The notes beneath the pieces are model-generated. The model worked only from the letters and a program-made list of their open reading frames with translations. It did not search any database and had not been told where the DNA came from. A DNA stretch of 64,000 bases from Mycobacterium sp. EPa45 (GTDB lineage Bacteria > Actinomycetota > Actinomycetes > Mycobacteriales > Mycobacteriaceae), in NCBI RefSeq assembly GCF_001021385.1, contig NZ_CP011773.1:3720001-3784000 (forward strand), given 5' to 3'. Shown here piece after piece: positions 5,446 through 21,709 of this stretch (its first letter is position 1; every line of letters begins with the position of its first letter). A program made the position numbers and the translations under genes.

Positions 5446-10207
<4,762 letters not shown>

Positions 10208-10261
10208 TCATAGGTGATGCCACAATGACGCCTCGCAGGCATTTCACCCCAAGGAATCCCG

Positions 10262-11842
10262 ATGCTCCGAGCTCTCGCCGTTGCGGCCGTATGGGTGGTC
10301 GCGCTGGCCGTCGCGGGACTGGCGTTCGTATTCGACCCGTGGTGGTGGCTGCTCGCGGCACCGGTGGCGGCAGCCGCGGCGCTGGGAACGTGGGACCTAC
10401 TGCAGACCCGGCACACCCTGCTGCGGTCCTACCCGGTCATCGCACACGCGCGGTGGCTGGCCGAGGCGCTACGTCCGGAGATCCGGCAGTACTTCATCGA
10501 ATCGAACACCGAGGCCAGCCCGTTCGACCGGGAGACCCGCGACATGGTCTACGAGCGGGCCAAGGCCACCAAGAGCGACGAACCGTTCGGCACCGAGCGT
10601 GACGTGAACGCGCTGGGCTACGAATTCCTGCGCCATTCGCTGCGCGCCCGGCTGGCCACCGACCTCGCGCCCAGGGTGCGGCTCGGCGGCCCCGACTGCT
10701 CCGCGCCGTACGACATTGCGTTGTTCAACGTCTCGGCGATGAGCTTCGGCGCGCTGTCGGGCAATGCGATCGAGGCACTCAACGGCGGCGCGGCCCGCGG
10801 CGGATTCGCCCACGACACCGGCGAGGGCGGGATCAGCCCCTACCACCTCAAGCACGGCGGCGACCTGATCTGGGAGATCGGCTCGGGATATTTCGGGTGC
10901 CGCGACGCGGGCGGGCACTTCGATGCGGGACTGTTCGAGGAGAAGGCCGCCTGGCCCACGGTCAAGGCCATCTCCATCAAGCTGTCCCAGGGCGCCAAGC
11001 CCGGCCTCGGCGGCGTACTGCCTGGCGCCAAGGTGAGCGCCGAGATCGCCGCGACTCGCGGTGTGCCGATCGGGCAGACGGTGGTGTCCCCGCCGTCCCA
11101 CACCGCATTCCACACCCCGTTGGAGATGATGCATTTCATCGCGACGCTGCGCAGCCTGTCCGGCGGCAAGCCGATCGGGTTCAAGCTGTGCATCGGGGCG
11201 CGCACCGAGTTCTTGTCGATCTGCAAAGCCATGCTGCACACCGGCATCACGCCGGACTTCATCATCGTCGACGGCTCCGAGGGCGGAACCGGTGCGGCGC
11301 CACAGGAATTCGAAGACCACGTCGGCATGCCGCTGACCGAGGGCCTGATGCTGGTGCACAACGCGCTCGTCGGTAGCGGGCTGCGAAGGTCTATCAAGAT
11401 CGGGGCGTCGGGCAAAGTGGCCAGCGGCGTCGATATTGTCAGCCGCATCTGCCAGGGCGCGGACTTCACGATGTCCGCGCGGGCAATGATGTTCGCGGTC
11501 GGCTGTATTCAGGCGATGAAGTGCAATACCAACAAGTGCCCGACCGGGGTGGCCACCCAGGACAGAGCTCGCGCCCGGGCGCTCTACGTTCCCGACAAGA
11601 CCGAGCGGGTGGTCAACTTCCAACGGGCCACCGTGGCCAGCGCTGCCCAGATCGTTGCCTCGATGGGGCTAAACGGATTCGGCGATCTCGAGCCGTCGAT
11701 GCTCAACCGCCGCATCGAGGGGCAGCGCACGCGCACCTACGCTGAGATCTACGACTGGCTGATGCCCGGGGAGCTTCTCGACGACCCGCCGGAGTCGTGG
11801 CGCTCGGACTGGATCGAAGCGTCCGCGGAGGAGTTCCGGTGA
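10262..11842 (+). CDS. FMN-binding glutamate-synthase-like membrane protein
   Basis: The 526-residue protein begins with two closely spaced hydrophobic segments (about residues 1-40). It then has the FMN-dependent barrel of the glutamate synthase large chain: FNVSAMSFGALSGNAIEALN, HDTGEGGISPYHLKHGG, and DFIIVDGSEGGTGAAP. A 3Fe-4S ligand set C-x5-C-x4-C is seen as C415, C421 and C426 (…KCNTNKCPTGVA). It lacks the N-terminal amidotransferase domain of full GltB, so the physiological substrate is unknown. ATG 10262 follows AAGGAA at a suitable distance. Confidence 0.88.
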   Translation: MLRALAVAAVWVVALAVAGLAFVFDPWWWLLAAPVAAAAALGTWDLLQTRHTLLRSYPVIAHARWLAEALRPEIRQYFIESNTEASPFDRETRDMVYERAKATKSDEPFGTERDVNALGYEFLRHSLRARLATDLAPRVRLGGPDCSAPYDIALFNVSAMSFGALSGNAIEALNGGAARGGFAHDTGEGGISPYHLKHGGDLIWEIGSGYFGCRDAGGHFDAGLFEEKAAWPTVKAISIKLSQGAKPGLGGVLPGAKVSAEIAATRGVPIGQTVVSPPSHTAFHTPLEMMHFIATLRSLSGGKPIGFKLCIGARTEFLSICKAMLHTGITPDFIIVDGSEGGTGAAPQEFEDHVGMPLTEGLMLVHNALVGSGLRRSIKIGASGKVASGVDIVSRICQGADFTMSARAMMFAVGCIQAMKCNTNKCPTGVATQDRARARALYVPDKTERVVNFQRATVASAAQIVASMGLNGFGDLEPSMLNRRIEGQRTRTYAEIYDWLMPGELLDDPPESWRSDWIEASAEEFR

Positions 11843-12033
11843 GCGGTGCCTGCCACCTTGCTTCATCCAATCCTCAAGCCGCGGAGTAATTTTCCCACCG
11901 ACGACGGACCTCGTCGCGGAGATCAGCAGGCCCTGACATCGGACACCGCCCAGTCCACACATCTCACCTGGCCAAACACCGCTTGGTGCCTGGCTCGGTC
12001 CAGTACGATATCGATAAAGACCTGGGGGTCCTC

Positions 12034-12423
12034 ATGTTTCATGTTCCGTTGACCGTCGCGGCAGTCGCCGTGTTGTCGGTATCGCTGGCACCGGTCGCCG
12101 CCGCCGACACCCTCGGGGCACAGTGCACCGACTGGATGAAGATTTCGGCCGATTCCACCACCGGCGCGAAGATGTTCTGCGCCGCGCCGCCAGGGACGGG
12201 CGAGGACGCCCTGACGTGGACTGCGTGGTCACAGGGGGCTTGGAGCGATGCTCCGCCCGTCGGTCCGGTCGGCAGCCCATGCTCGGGTCCGAACTACGCG
12301 TTCGGGCTATCTAGCGACGACTACGTCGTATGGTGCTACGCGGGTGGAAAGGTGCTGCTGCCGGGCGGTGACGGGTATGTCCCCGCCGCGTCATCATCGG
12401 TCTGGAGCCTGTACTCGCCGTGA
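12034..12423 (+). CDS. Small secreted protein with a C-TG-M-C-LxW motif
   Basis: A 129-residue protein of unknown function. It has a signal peptide (hydrophobic segment about residues 6-18, then APVAAADTLG, likely cut after AAA). The mature part has four cysteines, suggesting two disulfides, and the pattern TGAKMFCAAPPGTGEDALTW. The start ATG 12034 sits seven bases after GGGGGT; an upstream in-frame start at 11983 lacks a ribosome-binding site. The protein encoded on the other strand at 12446-12667 shares the pattern, so the two appear to be paralogues meeting tail to tail. Confidence 0.7.
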   Translation: MFHVPLTVAAVAVLSVSLAPVAAADTLGAQCTDWMKISADSTTGAKMFCAAPPGTGEDALTWTAWSQGAWSDAPPVGPVGSPCSGPNYAFGLSSDDYVVWCYAGGKVLLPGGDGYVPAASSSVWSLYSP

Positions 12424-12445
12424 TGACACCGCGTCCGCACGGTCG

Positions 12446-12667
12446 CTAAGCCGGTCCGCCGTACTGCCACACGAGACTGTGGCTTCCGGTCATGGTCGGA
12501 TTGCACCACATCGTCCGACCAGTGTCGTCCTGGCTGGTGGCGTGAAACTCCACGCACGGGTCACCGGGCGATGGCGCCTGGGCATTGGCGGAACCGCCCG
12601 CCACGACGAGAACGATCGGCATAACAGCCGTAACCAGGGTGACCCTGACGAACCAGAGTGTCTGCAT
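12446..12667 (-). CDS. Small secreted protein, paralogue of the neighbouring exported protein
   Basis: A 73-residue exported protein of unknown function. The signal peptide is MQTLWFVRVTLVTAVMPIVL followed by VVAGGSANAQA, with cleavage expected after ANA. The mature part is about 40 residues with two cysteines and the motif TGRTMWCNPTMTGSHSLVW, which parallels the protein at 12034-12423. ATG 12667 has an excellent AAGGAGG eight bases upstream; an upstream GTG (12676) falls inside that ribosome-binding site and is unlikely. The gene lies downstream of the patatin gene on the same strand and could be the last gene of that operon. Confidence 0.68.
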   Translation of the reverse strand: MQTLWFVRVTLVTAVMPIVLVVAGGSANAQAPSPGDPCVEFHATSQDDTGRTMWCNPTMTGSHSLVWQYGGPA

Positions 12668-12714
12668 AACCGACACCTCCTTGCGGTCTATCCGAAATCT
12701 TCAGCGCCCAGCTG

Positions 12715-13899
12715 TCACGGTAATCCGCGAACGACCGCCGAGCGCGAAGAACGTGCGAACCTGTGCGGGTAGCCCCCGCGACCCTGTCGACTATAGAAAC
12801 CCGTCGAAGTGGGAAATGTGCCCTTCCGGGCGGCACGCTGACCGATACGTTGAAGGTCGCCGATGTGGTCGACGGAATCGATCTTTTGAATAGGTTCCGG
12901 TTGTATGTCGTGCAACCCCAGCGCGTCGAGGCCGACGCGGGTCAGTTCGGCGTTGTAGCGGACATAGGTGAACAACCGCGCGCCCGGTAGCGCATCCCCG
13001 TCAGCCATAAGATCACCAACCTCTTGATCCAACACCGAACCGTAACGGCAGCGCCCGAACACCCGGCAGAGCAGATCTTGTTGATGCAGGGCTGCCGACA
13101 TCAGGGCTGCCGGCACTGAGGTCGCGTTGAACAGCAGATTCATGTCGTCGGGACGAAGGCTGTCGACAGCCTTGGGAGCTGTGCCGGTGCCGACCGACAC
13201 CAACATCAACCGGTCCTCCCCGGTGGGCCAGCCCAGTCGGTAGACACCGAGGGTAGCCATCAGAAAAAGGTGAAAGGCCGGATTGTTGTACATGGTCAAA
13301 CCACCATCGACGAAGACGAAATCGCTTGAGCCGACGCGGATTCTCTCGGGCGGGAAGTAGACCGGTGCCGCGGTGCTCGCCCGTACCAGCTGCCACAACG
13401 GCAGGCGCAGATTGCTGTTCTCAGCATCCGCATTGAACATTCCGCCCGGGTTGTTACTCAGCGGCCATGGTGAATCCGTTGTGGCGTTACGCAAAACCAT
13501 CATCAACAACGTGTCCAGACGCTCATCGCCAAAGGTGATGTCGCCGAACGTCTCCTGTAGCAGCTCCTGCAGGCGTTCGCTGCTGTAACGCTGCTTGTAC
13601 CACTGGGTGATGAATGCACGGTCAAACATCGGTTTGGCGTGGGTGCTGTAAAACTGACGAAGCTGCGCCACTGACATGCGACATGACAAACCTGCGGCGA
13701 TGATCGCACCCGTGCTGGTTCCGGCGATGTAGTCGAAGTAATCGGCAAGGACGAAGTTGTGATCCCGAGATAGCCCCTCGCGCAGTTGCGCTTCGATCTC
13801 CGCGAGTATTTCCAGTGCGAGGACACCGCGAATGCCGCCACCGTCGATGGCGAGCATCTTTTTGGGGCCGTCCGCCCGCAGCCGATCACGGTAGCTCAC
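12715..13899 (-). CDS. Patatin-like phospholipase, probable 3' frameshift
   Basis: Predicted Ser-Asp dyad lipid acyl hydrolase. The 394-residue frame carries all patatin motifs: the oxyanion loop DGGGIRG (19-25), the nucleophile elbow GTSTG (S62) and the DGG dyad (D198). The last 38 or so residues, after DLQRIGQRAA, look unlike the family. Shifting the frame by one base there gives PEGHISHFDGFL and a stop at 12791-12793, the kind of ending expected. I therefore think a single-base frameshift in the run around 12830 extends the frame to 12715, although the catalytic domain is intact. The gene starts 33 bases after the TIR-STAND-WD40 gene and is probably co-transcribed with it. Patatins act as membrane-degrading effectors in several bacterial defence systems. 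Confidence 0.88.
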   Translation of the reverse strand: MSYRDRLRADGPKKMLAIDGGGIRGVLALEILAEIEAQLREGLSRDHNFVLADYFDYIAGTSTGAIIAAGLSCRMSVAQLRQFYSTHAKPMFDRAFITQWYKQRYSSERLQELLQETFGDITFGDERLDTLLMMVLRNATTDSPWPLSNNPGGMFNADAENSNLRLPLWQLVRASTAAPVYFPPERIRVGSSDFVFVDGGLTMYNNPAFHLFLMATLGVYRLGWPTGEDRLMLVSVGTGTAPKAVDSLRPDDMNLLFNATSVPAALMSAALHQQDLLCRVFGRCRYGSVLDQEVGDLMADGDALPGARLFTYVRYNAELTRVGLDALGLHDIQPEPIQKIDSVDHIGDLQRIGQRAARKGTFPTSTGFYSRQGRGGYPHRFARSSRSAVVRGLP

Positions 13900-13932
13900 C
13901 AGCCCGCCGTCCAGATCACAGCCTTCATGCCG

Positions 13933-16900
13933 TCAGCGGTTCGCGGCGTCGGGCGGTGTCGGAAGTCCGGGGCAGACCGGAATGTAGCCTATGGCAGATG
14001 AGACCCAGTCGTTCCATTCCCGATGGCTCATGTTCTGAGTGATCTTACGGCACAACAGTTCTGGCCAGATTGCCTGATCCGGAGTCGGCCATTCCAGTAC
14101 GGTACCGTCGGAGCTGCCGGAGATGACACGCTGCCCATCGGGGCTGAACCCGACACTGGTTACCCCCTTGGTGTGGCCGTTGAGCGGTGCGCCGATCGCG
14201 TGGGGCGTGTCCGCCTCCCACAGTCGAAGTGTTTTGTCAGCGCTGCCCGAGATGATGCGGTGTCCGTCGGGGCTGAATGCCACCGCGGAGACCAGGTCGG
14301 TGTGGCCGGTCATCGGAAGTCCGATGGGTCCGCCGGTGTCGGCATCCCACAATCGCAAGGTTTGATCCCAGCTGCCCGAGACGATGCGGTGTCCGTCCGG
14401 GCTGAACCCGACAGCCGACACAACGTCGCTGTGGCCCGTCATCGGTTCCCCGATGGGTTTGCTGGTGTCGACGTCCCATTCGCGTACGGTCTTGTCGAAG
14501 CCGCCGGAGACTACGCGGTGCCCGTCCGGACTGAATGCCACGCTCCACACCAACTCGGCGTTGCCGGTCAAAGGTTGCCCAATCGGCTTTCCGGTGTCGG
14601 CGTTCCACACCCGCAGCGCGTTGTCCTCGACGCTCGCGGTCACGATACGGTGCCCGTCCGGGCTGAATGACGCCTTGATGACAATCGCATCCGGCGGGGT
14701 CATCGGCTTTCCAACGGGCTCGCCGCTATCTGAGTCCCACACTTGCAATGTGCCGATTTTGTCGACTGCGAGGACCCTGCGACCATCGGGGCTGAACGCC
14801 ACCTTGGTGACCCCCACGGTCTGGCCCGGGAGCGGGGGGCCGATGGGCTGGCCGGTGGCTGCGTCTCGCATCTGCACCGTGTCGCCGGTCGCGGCGACGA
14901 TACGACGTCCGTCGGGACTGAAGCCCACGCTCGATATCGGGCCCGCGCCAGTCACCAGCGCGGCGGTGGTGGAGTCCCACAGCCGCAAGGTTCGGTCGCC
15001 GCCGCCGGAGAAGATCCGCCGTCCGTCGGGGCTGAAGGTAACCGCTTGGACGTAAGCCGTGTGGCCAGTGAGCGGGGCGCCGATGCGCTGGCCGGTGTCG
15101 ACATCCCATACGGTGACCGTGTGGTCAGCGCCGCCCGAAACGAGCCGGCGGCCGTCAGGGCTGAAGGCCACACCATTCCCCGAGCCGCTCATCGGCGACC
15201 CGACGGGCCGACCGGTGCCGGCATCCCATAACTGCAGGATGTCGTTTCGGGAGCTGGCCGATGCGATGCGGCGACCGTCGGGACTGAACGCCACGCTGGA
15301 CACCTCGTCTCCGCAGTCGATCGGCACGCCAAGGGGTTGGCCGGTGTGGGTGTCCCACAGCCGCAGTGTGTGATCGGAACTGCCCGAAACGATGCGCTGC
15401 CCATCGGGACCGAACGCGACGCCGTTCACGGCACCGGTATGGCCGGTCATCGGCGGCCCCACGGGCTGGCCGGTGTCGGCGTCCCAGAGCCGCAGGGTCT
15501 GATCGGAACTGCCCGAGACGATTCGGCGCCCATCGGGACTGAACGCCACGCCGTTCACGGCACCGGTATGGCCGGTCATCGGCGGCCCCACGGGCTGGCC
15601 GGTGTCGGCGTCCCAGAGCCGCAGCGTGTAATCCCAGCTGCCCGAAACGATGCGACGCCCATCGGGACTGAACGCCACGCTGGTCACCGCGTCGGCGTGG
15701 CCGGTCATCGGCGGCCCCACCGGCTGGCCGGTGTCGGCGTCCCACCGCCGCAATGTCTTGTCGTTGCTCGCCGAAGCCATTCGCCGTCCGTCGGGGCTGA
15801 AAGCCACACTGTTCACAACGTCGCCGGTAGGGATGATCTTGAGTGTTTTCCGCAACCCGACCACGCCGGCAAACAGCGCGCCGGTGTCGGCAGCTGTCGG
15901 CGCGATTCGCGGCGCGGCGAGGATCTGCTGAAGCGCCCTCGCATCACCTCCGCCCTGAATGCCGGCCAGCATGGATTGCCCCTCGGAGGTCAGTTTGAGA
16001 GCGACCGCTTCGCGCGTGCGGGCGTCGGCCTGATACCGGGCCGTAGTTGCCTGGACGATCCCGACGACGGCAACGGCAGCACCGACAATGGCGATGATTG
16101 CTATCACGGCGGTCGCGGCGAGGACTCGGCGCAGTATGCGTGAGCGTTTCCGCAACACCACCGCGTGTGACTGCGCCTGCTCCTTCGCAGCGGTCTCGGC
16201 GGCCGCGAGTTTCTCCGCGGCATCGCGCCGGTCCTTCTCGGCCTGCAATTCGGCTTCCTGCTGACGCTTCTCGGCTTCGACCCGCGATTCCTCTCGCGCA
16301 CGGGAGGCGCGCAGGAAGTCGCGGCAGGGTTGCACGCGATCTCGGAATCCAGGTGCGGCCGCCAAGATTTCGGCGTCCGCGAGCCGCGTACCTTGCAGCA
16401 GCCAGGCGTCGTCGCGTTGATTTCTCTCCCACGCAAGAGCACCACGCTCGATCGAGTCGGCATTCTTGAGATCCTCGCGTTGCTCAGCCAGCCATCGGGC
16501 CAACTCGTCCCACTGACGCAACAGGCTTTCCAACGCGACCTCGACGACCACCTCGCCGTCACGGGTGTCTTTGACCAGTAGCCGTTTGGCAACGAGCTTC
16601 TCGAGCAGCGGACGACTCTGCTCGGGCAGCTCGGTCCAGCGGGTGACCCGCCGCATCGGCTGGTCATTGTCGGGATTGATCGTGGCCAGCCACGGAATGA
16701 ATGCCGCACGCAACTGTTGCAGCTGCAGTGCCCGCTGCTCGGCGCACTGACTCAACAAACTGTCAATTTCGGTGCGCACCACGGATTGGATGCCACCCAT
16801 CGAAAGATATTCCGGCAGCGACAATGTGCCGTCGCTTCCGTAGTCTTCGTAGAGCCGGGCCAGCGTCAATGCCAGCAGCGGCAGCGTATCCGCACCCTCG

Positions 16901-18192
16901 GTGCAGTCGTCGAGCAATCGGTTGACCAGTTCGGGTTCTATCTGGACAGGTCGACCACCTTCGGTGGCGCGGACGGCTGGACCGGTGACTACGTCTTTGA
17001 ACTGCGTACGCGGCATCGGTTTGAGTTCGTCAAACAACACGGTGCCCACCCCAGCCAGCTGCGGAGCAGTCTGCAACGCCTGGTAACGATCGGTCCGGAT
17101 AGTGACGGCCAGTACCAGACCCAGCCGGTCCGACTGACCGTCGCCGCACGCAGCCAGGCCCGCAATCAGCTCCAGGAACGCCGCCGCCTCCCTGCCGGCA
17201 TCGGCGCCGAACAGTTCCTCGGCTTGATCCAAGGGCAGCACAAGCGTCGGCAGCGGCATCTCGCCGGCCTCGGTCAACAACCGGGCGCTCGCCGCACGTT
17301 GTATCTCGAGGAGCCACTGCGCCAGCTGGGCCACCGAACCGCCCAAGCACGCCTGTTTGATCTCACCGAGCCCCGGTGCGCCCAAACCCAATCGGGTACG
17401 AGTGGCGTGAATGGCTCGGGCCAACCCGGTGTCCCCGGTGAGAGCGCTGCGTTGTGGTCGCACGATGTCAAGAACCATGAACTCACGGTCGTCGCGGCGC
17501 AGTCGCGGCAACAAACCCGCACGCAGGAACGACGACTTCCCGGTTCCTGATGGGCCGAGTACGACGAAGAGCGTCTCTAATCCGGATCTGCGCATCCCGC
17601 GCAGCGCATCCAGCCCTCGCAGGATCTGAGCGTCGCGGCCGAAGAATACCGCCGCGTCGACTTCTTCCAGCGGTTCCCATCCCCGATACGGTGCGCGCTC
17701 AGGATCATTGGGGGGCGGCCAGACGAATGACTCCGCGCCGATCCCGGCGCCGACGATGCCCTCCCGCAGCCGGTACAGGCCCTCGGACAAGAACTCGACC
17801 GGTGCAGCGTCATCACCAATGTCGATCAGGGTGGTCGGGCCGGGACCGATAAGGTCGATCTGCTGCCACTCCCGCGTGGGGTCATCACCGGTCAGCGCAC
17901 CAATCCGAGCGGAAAAGACTTTCTTGTTCAAGTATTCGGCGAACCGATACTCCGTCTTGCACTCCGGGGAGGCCTCCCAGTCGGCTGACACAAGGCATAT
18001 CACCGCCTCGCAGCGGGTGCTGGCCTGCCGCAACGCGTCCTTCCACCGCACGCCCGATCGAATCCCGCTGTCACGATCAAGGTCCAGGAAGATTTCGTTG
18101 GCCAACGGCGGCTCCTGACCGATCAGCCACTGCCGCAACGCGATCGCCTGCCGATTGTCCCGGCTGGAGTGACTCAGGAAGATCCGCGACAT
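13933..18192 (-). CDS. TIR-STAND NTPase-WD40 protein (NLR-like)
   Basis: A 1419-residue multidomain protein. Residues 2-100 are a TIR domain ([40 protein letters not shown]), with E81 at the position of the TIR NADase glutamate. Residues about 170-600 form an nSTAND1-type NTPase: entry motif [20 protein letters not shown]-loop GPSGTGKS (213-220), Walker [13 protein letters not shown] (317-328). A charged coiled coil precedes one transmembrane helix at about 690-712. Residues about 792-1366 are 14 WD40 repeats, enough for two seven-bladed propellers. This is a sensor-switch-effector design like NLR immune receptors. Neighbours are a RyR/TrkA membrane protein upstream and a patatin downstream, all on the same strand. 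ATG 18192 has only a weak ribosome-binding site. Confidence 0.9.
14090..15820. repeat. Tandem WD40-coding repeats, about 129 bp each
   Basis: Fourteen in-frame repeats encode the WD40 blades. The units with ends near 15410, 15540 and 15670 are almost identical at the DNA level: a stretch of about 75 bases beginning gccgttcacggcaccggt recurs 129 bp apart (15421 and 15550) without a change I can see. Outer units are more diverged. Such internal identity points to recent duplication or gene conversion within the sensor domain. Confidence 0.85.
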
Positions 18193-18333
18193 GCGATCAC
18201 CGGGTCCTGTGCCCTACCAACATCTGCCACCCCGCGCCGCCAGCAGCCCTGGATCGGGTCAAAGAACCACACCCGTAGCAGAAAGCGTAGATCTGTCGGC
18301 CTCGCCCTCGGGGGCAAAATCGGGAATCCGCGG

Positions 18334-20820
18334 TCACGGCGGCAGTGGTCCCTCGTAGCGTTGCCGGAACTGAACGTCCGGAATCGGCCACAGCTCGCCG
18401 TTGCCACCTGTCACGATCCAATCGCCATCGGCAGCCGTCGCGGGCCCCTCGAGGGTCTCGATGGTCTCCCCGGCACGGGCAGGTCGAGCAGTAACGAAAC
18501 CCGTTCTCCGCCAACGATTTCCGTCGACATATTCGTGGGTCGCGCGGAATATGTCGTCGTTGACCGACCAGGCGTTGCCTGCGCCATCCTGAACAGCCCA
18601 GTCACCGGCATCGCCGTTCATGATGTTGCCCGAGCTCGACGTCCAGGTCCATGCGTCGGTTTGTTGGGTGGCGGTGACGATGCCCGTCCGTCGATACCGC
18701 TGCCATAGCGGACGCGAGCGGTAACCCAGCTTCGCCAGTTCCACCAGGGTGTTGGCCAGGCTCCGGAGCGCAGTCTTCTTGAAGTGGGGGTTGTGTTCGG
18801 CGGCGTCCCAATCCAGTAGCTTGTCGTGGACTTTGTGCTCATCGTCGCGCACCGGCCCATAGCGCCACCCGTCGGCGCGGTAGAAGCGACACCAGTCAAC
18901 ATGCTCGGCGCGAGCCATCGCGACGGCGGTGCTGGCATCAAAGCCGAGCAAGCGCAGGGATTCGAGTGGCTCGGCCTGCCGGTACACCTCGGAGTCCAGA
19001 GGCGGCGCCCACTGGCCGGTGGCGGTGCTCCAGGTGTGGCCGCCAATCGATTCGACGATCCAGAGAATGTTGCGCACCTGGCGCCGGTTCGACTCGCGAT
19101 AGAACTCGGCGAGTTGCGCCCACGGTTGGGTCGCGGGTGTTCGGTGGCCGTTCTCGGCGGCGAAGTCATCTGCGAAACGTTCGTGGATGAGCCTCGCGGC
19201 CCGCTCCCAGGCATCGTGGGCCATACCGGCCGGCAGATTCATCCCGAGGCCGAATGTGCGCAACCGACCCACGATCGGAGCCCGGTCGTCCTGGACCGTT
19301 GAGTATGGATCCCACGCGAAGATCAGCAACTCGGGAAAGCGTGCGGCCAGTCGGGTGCCTGTCATGGCGTCTGCCGCTGCCACGGTGTCGTCCACCACGA
19401 TCACCGCGTGAGAACGCGGATCAGCATGGCTCTCGTTTATCAATTCGGCCACAACCCGCACTGACGGCCTCCTCGGCACCGCCTCGATGGCACAGGGGAT
19501 CGACGCAAGACCGAGCTGATCTTGATGGAATTCGTGGTCCTGCAAGTAATCATCGGCGTTGTCCCCGACCAGGACCAGCGCCGGCAAGGCGGCATCCGTT
19601 GGGTCGGCGCGGTATGTGCGCTCCCGTTGACGTTGCGCCATATCGGCGCATAGTGCCAGGGTCAGCGGGGAGGTGCCGCAGACCACGACACGGGTCACCG
19701 TCGTATCCGCGGTGACGTTCTCGAGTAGCCGGCGCGCCGTTACGTCATACTTGCCCACTGCATCCGCCGCCCACCGGCTGTCCGATCCTCCGAACTGCTG
19801 GGCGCGCCAGGCCTCGGCCTGCCAAGGGTCATCGATCCGCACTATCAAAGGCACCCGGCGCTTTACGTTGACCGCTGGGATACAGCGATTGATCACGTCA
19901 AGGCACGACAGGTTCGCCATCGGGTCTGACGAGAGCAAATACAGTCGGTCCAGCTTGCGCCACAGTGACAACGCTTCCAACGTCTCCGGACGAGCGAAAT
20001 CGACAACGACCACACGCGCACCCTGATGGCGAGCTTCCTGGACGGCGGGAAGATCAGGGCTCGCGGTGATCACCACGAGCCGGCTGTTCCTCTCCAGTGT
20101 GTTTCGCACCGCGCTGACCATCGAACGCGCATCGTCGTCAACGCCCACAACCACACTCATCGACCGGTCCATACGAATTCGAATCCGGTCGGCCTGGGAC
20201 CGTAACAGGGCGATCACCACACCGCCGATGCCCACCGTGATCGCCGCGAGAGCAGACAACCGGGCGATCTCCAAGGCGATCGGAGTCGGTGCCGGGCACG
20301 TGTCGCCGCCGATCGACTGATCACCGACACCGCCCTTGAGCAGGCCGACGGTCCACATCAGCGGTGTGTAGAAATATGGATTCGCCCCCCCGTGGCAATT
20401 CCAGTAGGAGCTCAATCCCAACACGAAGTTCGCCACGGTCAAGCCCACGACAATTCGCAGAGTGACGTTTACGCCCTGCCCCTGTCGGCCGCCGACGACG
20501 TCGAGTGCACAAGCCACGGTGACTATCGCCACGACGATCGTGATCGCCAGCGACGACCCGGGCTCGCCGAGCCATCGCACAGCAACCGGCATGTGCTGAT
20601 TGAGTCCGGGCCGCAAAGCTAACGCCGCAAGGTAGCAAACGACCAGAGCGACCAATACAAGCGATACCGCTCGAAGAGCCTTGAGGACGCTGCGCTTGCC
20701 TGGCCCCACCGCCGGACCCCATTTCACGTCGACGCACCGCATGTGGTTTCCCGAAGTGATTTCATCAGTTATGCGGTCGTTGCGCCGGAGGTTCGTTGGC
20801 GCCCGCTCGAAGCCGCTCAC
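18334..20820 (-). CDS. Membrane TrkA/RCK-RyR domain protein (ion-channel-like)
   Basis: An 828-residue protein not assigned to a characterised family. Four hydrophobic segments (about 48-70, 88-110, 118-138, 184-206) are followed by two tandem TrkA/RCK-like Rossmann domains (about 222-370, from SVVVGVDDDARSMV; and about 375-520, from VTRVVVCGTSPLTLAL). Next is a ryanodine-receptor (RyR) domain (about 632-700, DGWRYGPVRDDEHKVHDKLL) and two C-terminal repeats built on GDW (GDWAVQDGAGNAWSV, 739-753; GDWIVTGGNGELWPI, 799-813). The layout resembles RCK-gated channels with an added ligand-sensing RyR module. GTG 20820 is the longest start; ATG 20742, still before the first membrane segment, is a good alternative. 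It is the first gene of the cassette with the TIR-STAND and patatin genes. Confidence 0.82.
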   Translation of the reverse strand: MSGFERAPTNLRRNDRITDEITSGNHMRCVDVKWGPAVGPGKRSVLKALRAVSLVLVALVVCYLAALALRPGLNQHMPVAVRWLGEPGSSLAITIVVAIVTVACALDVVGGRQGQGVNVTLRIVVGLTVANFVLGLSSYWNCHGGANPYFYTPLMWTVGLLKGGVGDQSIGGDTCPAPTPIALEIARLSALAAITVGIGGVVIALLRSQADRIRIRMDRSMSVVVGVDDDARSMVSAVRNTLERNSRLVVITASPDLPAVQEARHQGARVVVVDFARPETLEALSLWRKLDRLYLLSSDPMANLSCLDVINRCIPAVNVKRRVPLIVRIDDPWQAEAWRAQQFGGSDSRWAADAVGKYDVTARRLLENVTADTTVTRVVVCGTSPLTLALCADMAQRQRERTYRADPTDAALPALVLVGDNADDYLQDHEFHQDQLGLASIPCAIEAVPRRPSVRVVAELINESHADPRSHAVIVVDDTVAAADAMTGTRLAARFPELLIFAWDPYSTVQDDRAPIVGRLRTFGLGMNLPAGMAHDAWERAARLIHERFADDFAAENGHRTPATQPWAQLAEFYRESNRRQVRNILWIVESIGGHTWSTATGQWAPPLDSEVYRQAEPLESLRLLGFDASTAVAMARAEHVDWCRFYRADGWRYGPVRDDEHKVHDKLLDWDAAEHNPHFKKTALRSLANTLVELAKLGYRSRPLWQRYRRTGIVTATQQTDAWTWTSSSGNIMNGDAGDWAVQDGAGNAWSVNDDIFRATHEYVDGNRWRRTGFVTARPARAGETIETLEGPATAADGDWIVTGGNGELWPIPDVQFRQRYEGPLPP

Positions 20821-20878
20821 ACGGCAACTGACGACCGCACTGCTCTGCGAGGTGCCTGACTGACGTCAGCGCGGCGGG

Positions 20879-20895
20879 GGCCGACAGTGTCGGCC
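20879..20895. terminator. Short GC-rich inverted repeat
   Basis: GGCCGACA-G-TGTCGGCC is a perfect 8-bp inverted repeat just after the stop of the rhomboid-like gene and before the RyR gene, both leftward. No U-tract follows, so it may be a weak terminator or a processing hairpin. A second palindrome, CTGACGTCAG, lies at 20860-20869 and could instead be a regulator site for the RyR cassette. Confidence 0.4.
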
Positions 20896-20914
20896 TCAAC
20901 GGGTTCGGCCCGGT

Positions 20915-21709
20915 TTAGGTGGCGGCCACCCGCGCCGTTACGCAGGTCGAAGTCCTGCGCACCGAGCGCCGGCGCGCGAGGTAGGCGGCTGTCAGCGCGC
21001 CCAGCACACCGAGCGTCGATGTCGTCAGGATCGACAGTCCGGTGTTGGCCATGATCAGGTAGCCGAACGCCGCCGCGACGGCGAGCAGCGCGTACCGCGC
21101 GGTGGTCCAGTGCGCGGGATGGCCGAATCGGGTGCCGACCACCATGCCGAGCACCAGTGCGACACCATGGCCGACGTTGGTGAAGTCGCCCCACGTACTG
21201 ACCGCCGACCCGACCGCGACCGCCAGCCACCAGCCGGTCCAGGCTGCGCGCCACTGGCGTGGGATCGCCGCGGTGAGCGCGCCCAGGACACCGACCGCTC
21301 CGTAACTCATGCCGACATCGGTGACATTGACGATCGACCATGACGCCAAGCCGGCCGCCAGCGCGGCGACCAGCCCCGCGGCGACCAGCATTGTGGCGCC
21401 GACGTGACCGACGACGAACGCCAGCGCCATCCACCGGCTGCGCCACAGCAATTCGGCCAGGCCGAGAATCGCGAAGAGGCCGGGCAGCCACACATAGATC
21501 GGCCCGTTCTCGATGACGAATGCGCTGCCGATCAGCGTGCCGAGCCGCCCGTGTGCGAGATTGTGCAGATTGGTACTCGCGTGCAGGATCACCTGGTCAC
21601 GTACATGGGGGCCGAGTGCCAGCAGCACGGCCGCCACCACCGCGAGTACGGCGGTGTAACCCAGAGTGACCCGAACGCGGACCAGCCGCGTCAGCAGTGA
21701 GAGAACCAT
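20915..21709 (-). CDS. Rhomboid-like integral membrane protein
   Basis: A 264-residue protein with about six to seven hydrophobic segments. Elements that recall the rhomboid fold: NLHNLAHGRLGTLIGSAF in the first loop, DVGMSYGAVGVLGAL where the GxSG serine would lie, and GHGVALVLGMVVG where the catalytic histidine helix would lie. The serine context is GMSYG rather than the usual GxSG, so protease activity is uncertain; it may belong to the divergent actinobacterial rhomboid-like group. It ends ten bases before the cyclase gene starts its 3' end, and both run leftward. Confidence 0.6.
   Translation of the reverse strand: MVLSLLTRLVRVRVTLGYTAVLAVVAAVLLALGPHVRDQVILHASTNLHNLAHGRLGTLIGSAFVIENGPIYVWLPGLFAILGLAELLWRSRWMALAFVVGHVGATMLVAAGLVAALAAGLASWSIVNVTDVGMSYGAVGVLGALTAAIPRQWRAAWTGWWLAVAVGSAVSTWGDFTNVGHGVALVLGMVVGTRFGHPAHWTTARYALLAVAAAFGYLIMANTGLSILTTSTLGVLGALTAAYLARRRSVRRTSTCVTARVAAT

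Follow-up and report, generated by a model that had tools for sequence, protein, structure and literature searches.

Results

The stretch of DNA analysed here (the window) comprises 64,000 nucleotides of Mycobacterium sp. EPa45 (NZ_CP011773.1, positions 3,720,001 to 3,784,000) and is part of a 6.18 Mb single-contig genome. Near pheS, three genes lie side by side on its minus strand, to which all coordinates of these genes and their domains refer. They encode a membrane protein with a ryanodine receptor (RyR) domain and RCK-type domains (P0003, 18334..20820, 828 aa), a TIR-nSTAND1-WD40 protein (P0002, 13933..18192, 1419 aa) and a patatin-like phospholipase (P0001, 12715..13899, 394 aa), the last an optional member. 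Open reading frame (ORF) calls bear out the preliminary description of this DNA in that the three are adjacent and leftward, with gaps of 141 and 33 bases. That description had proposed a three-gene cassette; our comparison shows that the conserved unit is instead the RyR protein together with a TIR gene.

Across 198 genomes of the genus, the RyR protein was found in 69 (E <= 1e-20) and the TIR-STAND protein in 28 (E <= 1e-60), 24 of which also have the RyR protein. The trio does recur, sharing one locus in nine of the 198 genomes; it is strictly adjacent in seven of these (the window's genome, G018, G043, G081, G085, G139 and G196), with one gene between its members in G004 and several in G058. 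As a conserved unit the trio was nevertheless rejected, with patatin in 10 genomes compared to 69 for the RyR protein.

To follow the pair, genes were called in the window and in the surroundings of 60 RyR loci from 59 genomes, and TIR and RyR were marked by profiles built in this analysis. In 54 of the 61 loci the RyR gene has a TIR gene no more than two genes away (including L071, at a distance of 3.5 kb), and in three others the TIR is three, four and seven genes off. No TIR was in view at the other four: L031, a 9.6 kb contig, L041, L088 and L072, where the RyR gene sits at a contig end next to a truncated STAND-WD40 gene. Five further loci (L254, L258-L261) all have a TIR within two genes, bringing the mycobacterial total to 59 of 66. 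In 80 loci of named genomes, a set that shares some genomes with these, the TIR is within two genes in 69, farther away in three and missing in eight. Because TIR_2 genes are uncommon, with 85 places across 60 genomes and 67 of these in the 27 RyR-positive ones, chance adjacency should, by our own estimate, be well under 1%. TIR_2 is present in all 27 RyR-positive genomes compared to 10 of the 33 others (Fisher p 4e-9, not corrected for kinship). On a quick tree of 90 RyR proteins, nine partner-and-orientation classes ('none' included) need 15 changes, a figure read from a tree with several long branches and unsure details.

The pair also takes other forms. The window's genome carries a second RyR-TIR locus (L201; G000:C1:2143000-2162999, 5690-13915) with genes for a CHASE2-TIR protein (553 aa), a solo RyR protein (156 aa), a TrkA_N-RyR protein (657 aa) and two related TIR proteins (379 and 417 aa), which start 14 bases downstream of the RCK-RyR protein. 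Short RyR-RCK genes are convergent with TIR-STAND-WD40 genes in L223 and L250, and a Rhodococcus plasmid encodes a long RyR protein (39% identity); the 18 kb shown include two TIR-annotated genes, one of which lies two genes downstream. A short RyR-RCK gene from another family of the class adjoins a TPR-S (tetratricopeptide repeats-sensor) protein, the nearest TIR being five genes off (L206:8370-9722).

The 828-aa protein had been described as an RCK-type membrane protein with an RyR domain. Those domains are there, and the protein is more than an RCK protein, having a channel-like predicted fold and an RyR ligand motif. Pfam RyR (PF02026) matches it at 1.3e-8, passing the gathering cut-off (35.4 against 27.4 bits), and TrkA_N matches at 6e-4, failing its cut-off (20.6 against 23.8 bits). 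TrkA_N is clear in short relatives (6e-14 in L201, along with a weak Slo-like RCK match, and 2e-15 in L223), and a Rossmann/TrkA-type fold is clear in the predicted model of the 828-aa protein. This AlphaFold model (mean pLDDT 85, pTM 0.76) has three long helices, separated by a short one from a fourth; two Rossmann-type domains come next, followed by the RyR domain and a pair of beta modules. The membrane part, delimited by AlphaFold models, Foldseek and residue counts, spans residues 40-217 (20170..20703), with long predicted helices at 40-69, 90-110, 116-146 and 181-217 and a short pore-helix-like element at 151-161. The element is flanked on either side by cysteines, C142 kept in 50 of 50 sequences and C175 in 48 of 50. 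The two Rossmann-type, RCK-like domains (residues 220-523, 19252..20163) were assigned from the model and from Foldseek matches to the TrkA ring, Slo1 and MthK.

Foldseek rows for the whole model include the TrkA ring (its ATP-gamma-S entry at the head), full-length Slo1, MthK and RyR chains; TM-scores are low, as is expected of multidomain chains. The models of the whole protein and of the membrane part alone (pLDDT 79) place a re-entrant helix between the last two membrane helices, ahead of the RCK domains of the full chain. With the membrane part alone, P-loop channels take 48 of the 50 Foldseek rows listed, mostly SthK and KcsA entries with many copies of one protein, at E 0.26 or worse. 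We read the membrane domain, as predicted, as channel-like and seated on a ring of tandem RCK domains. The PADLOC and NCBIfam collections have no model that covers the RyR protein, an absence that carries no information on its function.

By sequence, the RyR domain (residues 611-704, 18709..18990; Pfam, profile search and alignment with RyDEP) is homologous to animal RyR repeats and to the phage protein RyDEP. A profile of 50 RyR proteins picks up animal RyR1 (E 9e-11) and chain 35tm (1e-6); 35TM is the RyDEP structure, according to a preprint (PMC13232231). The same preprint describes RyDEP as binding and cleaving 2'cADPR and 3'cADPR, thereby serving phages against Thoeris, and phages as carrying RyR proteins against such cADPR signals (PMC13232231). 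RyDEP (gp78, L241:11664-12080) is 41% identical to the window's domain over 49 aa, and three of its ligand residues, H75, W78 and H100, are kept as H640, W643 and H665. The catalytic His (H75) is thus kept as H640, and the catalytic Asp, D117, corresponds by ungapped counting to K682. At this place, 125 long-form proteins with the same motif spacing have N in 70, D in 17, S in 11 and other residues in 27, whereas 19 motif-bearing short or solo RyR domains of other genera have D in 15; these counts leave out 34 proteins with other motif spacing and count related sequences apart. In L090 and L163, which have other spacing, Trp replaces the first His. With the H/W/H residues kept and the Asp place K682 here and mostly non-Asp in long forms, the pattern agrees better with a receptor than with a hydrolase. 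A role as glycosidase is disfavoured, the catalytic Asp being replaced by K682.

Beyond the RyR domain, the model has two C-terminal beta modules (residues 707-826, 18343..18702) that are PGDYG-like, the PGDYG match being below cut-off. In L081 (13016) and L082 (4588), the RyR protein stops after the RyR domain and these modules form a separate small gene beyond the TIR-STAND gene. Solo PGDYG-like proteins, which resemble this C-terminal module, adjoin ThsB-type TIR and SLATT genes beside an integrase in all three phage loci scanned (L262, Staphylococcus phage SN10; L263, Streptococcus phage Javan616; L264, Staphylococcus phage S-CoN_Ph24). Near the PGDYG-like gene of Javan199, annotation gives no TIR or SLATT gene. 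With three phages and a family found in 813 phage records, a TIR-linked PGDYG-like module is only a lead.

In the neighbouring protein, Pfam and a motif count bear out the N-terminal TIR domain, its E81 and the 14 WD40 repeats of the preliminary description. The TIR domain (residues 4-114, 17851..18183) has E81 at the catalytic place, and it is followed by an nSTAND1 NTPase (168-595, 16408..17691) with GPSGTGKSS at 213, by a predicted transmembrane segment (695-713, 16054..16110; hydropathy 3.04) that an Arg-rich stretch precedes, and by the 14 blades (about 790-1380, 14053..15825). On the first 600 aa, Pfam gives nSTAND1 at 9e-68 and TIR_2 at 4e-9. PADLOC gives no AVAST/Avs STAND model for this protein, its single hit being HEAT-ARM_XIII by way of the WD40 part.

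The main architectures of the TIR partners are TIR-STAND-WD40, TIR-WD40 (without a STAND match in L078 and L095, among 25 families checked) and TIR-PknH_C. All 41 short partners match TIR_2, 34 match PknH_C and one matches Macro; the last is a Macro-TIR fusion (L071:2610-3878), which puts a domain of the ADP-ribose-binding type in the same setting. The TIR gene may be codirectional, convergent or divergent to the RyR gene, and 61 of 62 partner TIRs carry the catalytic-site Glu. Hydropathy places a single strongly hydrophobic segment behind the TIR or TIR-STAND part of 52 out of 58 partners (13 of 13 TIR-STAND, 4 of 4 TIR-WD40 and 35 of 41 short partners). Arg and Lys are commoner before than after it in all 17 TIR-STAND and TIR-WD40 proteins; in the 35 short partners they are more frequent before it in 12, equal in 12 and fewer in 11. 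Pfam labels PknH_C extracellular. These simple counts suggest a cytosolic TIR and an exported sensor part, as in Toll receptors, although exported WD40 propellers would be unusual.

The patatin (Pfam 3e-25) has the expected S62, in GTSTG, and also DGG at 198. It matches PADLOC effector models (best 2e-46) and NCBIfam CBASS_lipase at 127 bits, below the curated cut-off of 200 bits. Relatives occur in 10 of the 198 genomes (E <= 1e-30), all of which also have the RyR protein. Among the 80 loci of named genomes, 10 have patatin, which adjoins TIR-STAND in nine; the tenth, L147, is a short contig on which no TIR is visible. In G059, the one patatin genome whose three genes do not share a locus, the patatin gene lies at a contig end, apart from an RyR gene whose neighbour is TIR-PknH_C, and no patatin was found in any fetched TIR-PknH_C-type neighbourhood. 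Patatin is an optional extra and not part of the conserved unit.

The trio fills an insert of about 9.1 kb (11839..20953 by blastn) that is missing in the close relative G024, where the counterparts of window positions 11838 and 20954 are joined with 40 bases between (L248). L242, L244 and L246 align to the same left end (11838) and to a right end at 20954 or 20970, with other genes or one gene pair between. Because L248 lacks the trio and these three hold other content at the same ends, the site is variable and the trio was inserted there, in agreement with the accessory island that had been proposed. The island had been placed between pheS and the cyclase gene; the position is right, but neither is an immediate flank, these being a glutamate-synthase-like gene on the pheS side and a rhomboid-like gene on the cyclase side. 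The former is also present in L248, L242, L244 and L246 and so belongs to the background. In 36 of 60 genus genomes compared, a single contig holds both the rhomboid-like gene and pheS no more than 50 kb apart, at under 500 bases in 19, 1.0-2.6 kb in 10 and over 4 kb in seven, among them the window's genome at 10.8 kb. The site is an insertion hot spot. Other gene sets of 5-17 kb stand there in L242, L243, L244, L245 and L247. No direct repeats of at least 9 bases were found between the two insert ends. Besides the three genes, the insert holds one or two small ORFs next to patatin, within 11983-12700: a called plus-strand ORF (145 aa, secreted-looking) and a second small region on the minus strand (about 12450-12670) that by eye reads as a secreted-looking protein.

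Discussion

Our data show that a membrane protein with an RyR domain is coupled to TIR genes of several architectures in mycobacteria. Because of this coupling, the catalytic Glu of the TIRs, the homology to RyDEP and the RCK-ring-like predicted fold, we propose a TIR-signalled membrane effector system resembling Thoeris with a different effector, an RyR-RCK channel opened by an ADP-ribose-type messenger, a proposal to which we give an even chance of being correct. The TIR-STAND-WD40 protein would be the sensor, its WD40 part meeting the putative trigger and its STAND part assembling afterwards, upon which the TIR domain would convert NAD+ into the messenger. The neighbouring RyR domain would bind this messenger without destroying it, and the tandem RCK ring would relay binding and open the channel-like membrane domain. 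Gradients of whichever ion species the channel might pass would fall and growth would stop, possibly as a defence against phage, and patatin, where present, would add phospholipid damage. A more specific version is tentative and, in our judgement, the less probable: a transmembrane receptor laid out like Toll, its WD40 or PknH_C sensor exposed and its TIR in the cytosol, would make a cADPR isomer that directly opens the RyR-domain channel. It is possible, though we would not count on it, that this would be a bacterial one-locus counterpart of the Toll-receptor layout and of the axis from cADPR to the ryanodine receptor.

Like Thoeris, the locus has a TIR enzyme gene beside a gene whose domain can, in relatives, bind cADPR isomers. 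In contrast to Thoeris, the window's TIR has no SIR2-SLOG or Macro-TM neighbour (Pfam on the RyR protein and patatin), the effector candidate is the RyR-RCK membrane protein, and the TIR is fused into a STAND-WD40 protein; the Macro-TIR near the RyR gene in L071 is a different layout. On present evidence, the window's system would work like Thoeris with a new effector and is not a member of a described Thoeris type. With RyDEP (PF02026; 35TM) it shares the domain family and the counterparts of H75, W78 and H100, but the window's protein is cellular, membrane-anchored, RCK-fused and without D117, whereas RyDEP is a phage protein directed against Thoeris. The predicted P-loop-like membrane part on tandem RCK domains would resemble the RCK-ring channels, such as Slo1/BK, MthK and the CASTOR type, except for the missing TVGYG filter and the extra RyR and PGDYG-like modules. 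Animal ryanodine receptors share the R12-type repeat (profile E 9e-11 to RyR1), but the pore and the remaining protein are not of the RyR family, an RCK ring being present instead. The patatin resembles CapV-type CBASS effectors in matching CBASS_lipase and the PADLOC effector models; unlike in CBASS, no CD-NTase gene lies in the insert (Pfam finds no such domain in the three trio proteins) and the patatin is below the curated cut-off.

Several observations weigh against TIR-to-RyR signalling through a channel. Seven of the 66 mycobacterial loci lack a TIR within two genes, and at four of these none is visible; six fetched TIR-STAND neighbourhoods (L251-L253, L255-L257) have no RyR gene. In other genera, a TIR lies within three genes in only two of 36 fetched RyR loci (L202 and L219), as counted with a TIR profile built mostly on mycobacterial TIRs, and eight-locus groups there share TIR-free synteny; that every RyR protein is paired with a TIR is thereby rejected. 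Among the Foldseek matches listed for the membrane part, no PDB entry scores better than E 0.26, and by eye no TVGYG-type filter follows the pore-helix-like element. The commonest form, RyR with TIR-PknH_C, stands in constant synteny in many species, judged by the gene-length pattern, unlike a mobile defence locus (its Pfam neighbours in L044 are LmeA, rhodanese, DUF1416 and THAP4-like haem-binding).

This last point also fits with the same signalling serving envelope or metabolic stress rather than phage defence, with membrane-spanning TIRs sensing the envelope and RyR-RCK adjusting ion balance, perhaps reversibly. The single predicted transmembrane helix in 52 of 58 partners and the PknH_C domain, extracellular per Pfam, in 34 of 41 short partners favour such a role. 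We consider it rather unlikely, as the form with TIR-STAND and patatin sits in a variable-site insert with parts known from abortive infection, and phages carry RyR proteins against cADPR signals (PMC13232231).

RCK domains bind adenine nucleotides in other systems, and TIR NADases are known abortive effectors. The TIR could then be a killing NADase freed by STAND assembly, with RyR-RCK only monitoring NAD+, ATP or ADP-ribose and tuning ion transport or shielding the cell, to which the TrkA ring with ATP-gamma-S at the head of the fold search lends support. This we think improbable, for it leaves both the RyR-TIR coupling across several architectures and the kept H/W/H motif unexplained. The homology to RyDEP and the retention of H75 as H640 would also suit an RyR domain that ends the signal, hydrolysing the TIR product as RyDEP does and guarding the host from self-activation; K682 in place of D117, and an Asp there in just 17 of 125 long-form motif matches against 15 of 19 short or solo domains elsewhere, make this very improbable. 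Least credible is that three unrelated genes share the island by accident. TIR-STAND genes do occur without an RyR neighbour in the six neighbourhoods above and patatin is in only 10 of 198 genomes, but the RyR-TIR adjacency in 59 of 66 loci and the RyR protein in all 10 patatin genomes speak strongly against it.

RyR/TrkA proteins were reportedly placed in nucleotide-centred conflict systems by Burroughs et al. in 2015. No paper on a cellular RyR-TIR pair stood among the best literature matches, and with two relevant papers outside the texts consulted a prior mention is possible; the texts of PMC7159879, PMC9503650 and PMC8195603, searched for ryanodine and RyR, hold no RyR-domain passage.

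The coupling of an RyR-domain channel-like protein to TIR enzymes is a more interesting point than the trio itself. If the proposal is true, TIR signalling would gain a new kind of effector, a ligand-gated channel, and cellular bacterial RyR domains would gain a role; in the literature examined, bacterial RyR domains have so far been tested just as phage evasion proteins. Whether cADPR isomers act on RyR R12-type domains, an old question, could then be tested in a small bacterial protein, and there would be a hint at the host targets of mycobacteriophage RyR proteins. Should the Toll-like reading with cADPR hold, phage RyR proteins of the RyDEP type would be erasers and sponges made from the same domain that the host uses as a receptor. 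Taken with the predicted fold, our comparison suggests that bacteria that are stressed or attacked by phage may open a channel by means of a nucleotide signal that a TIR enzyme makes.

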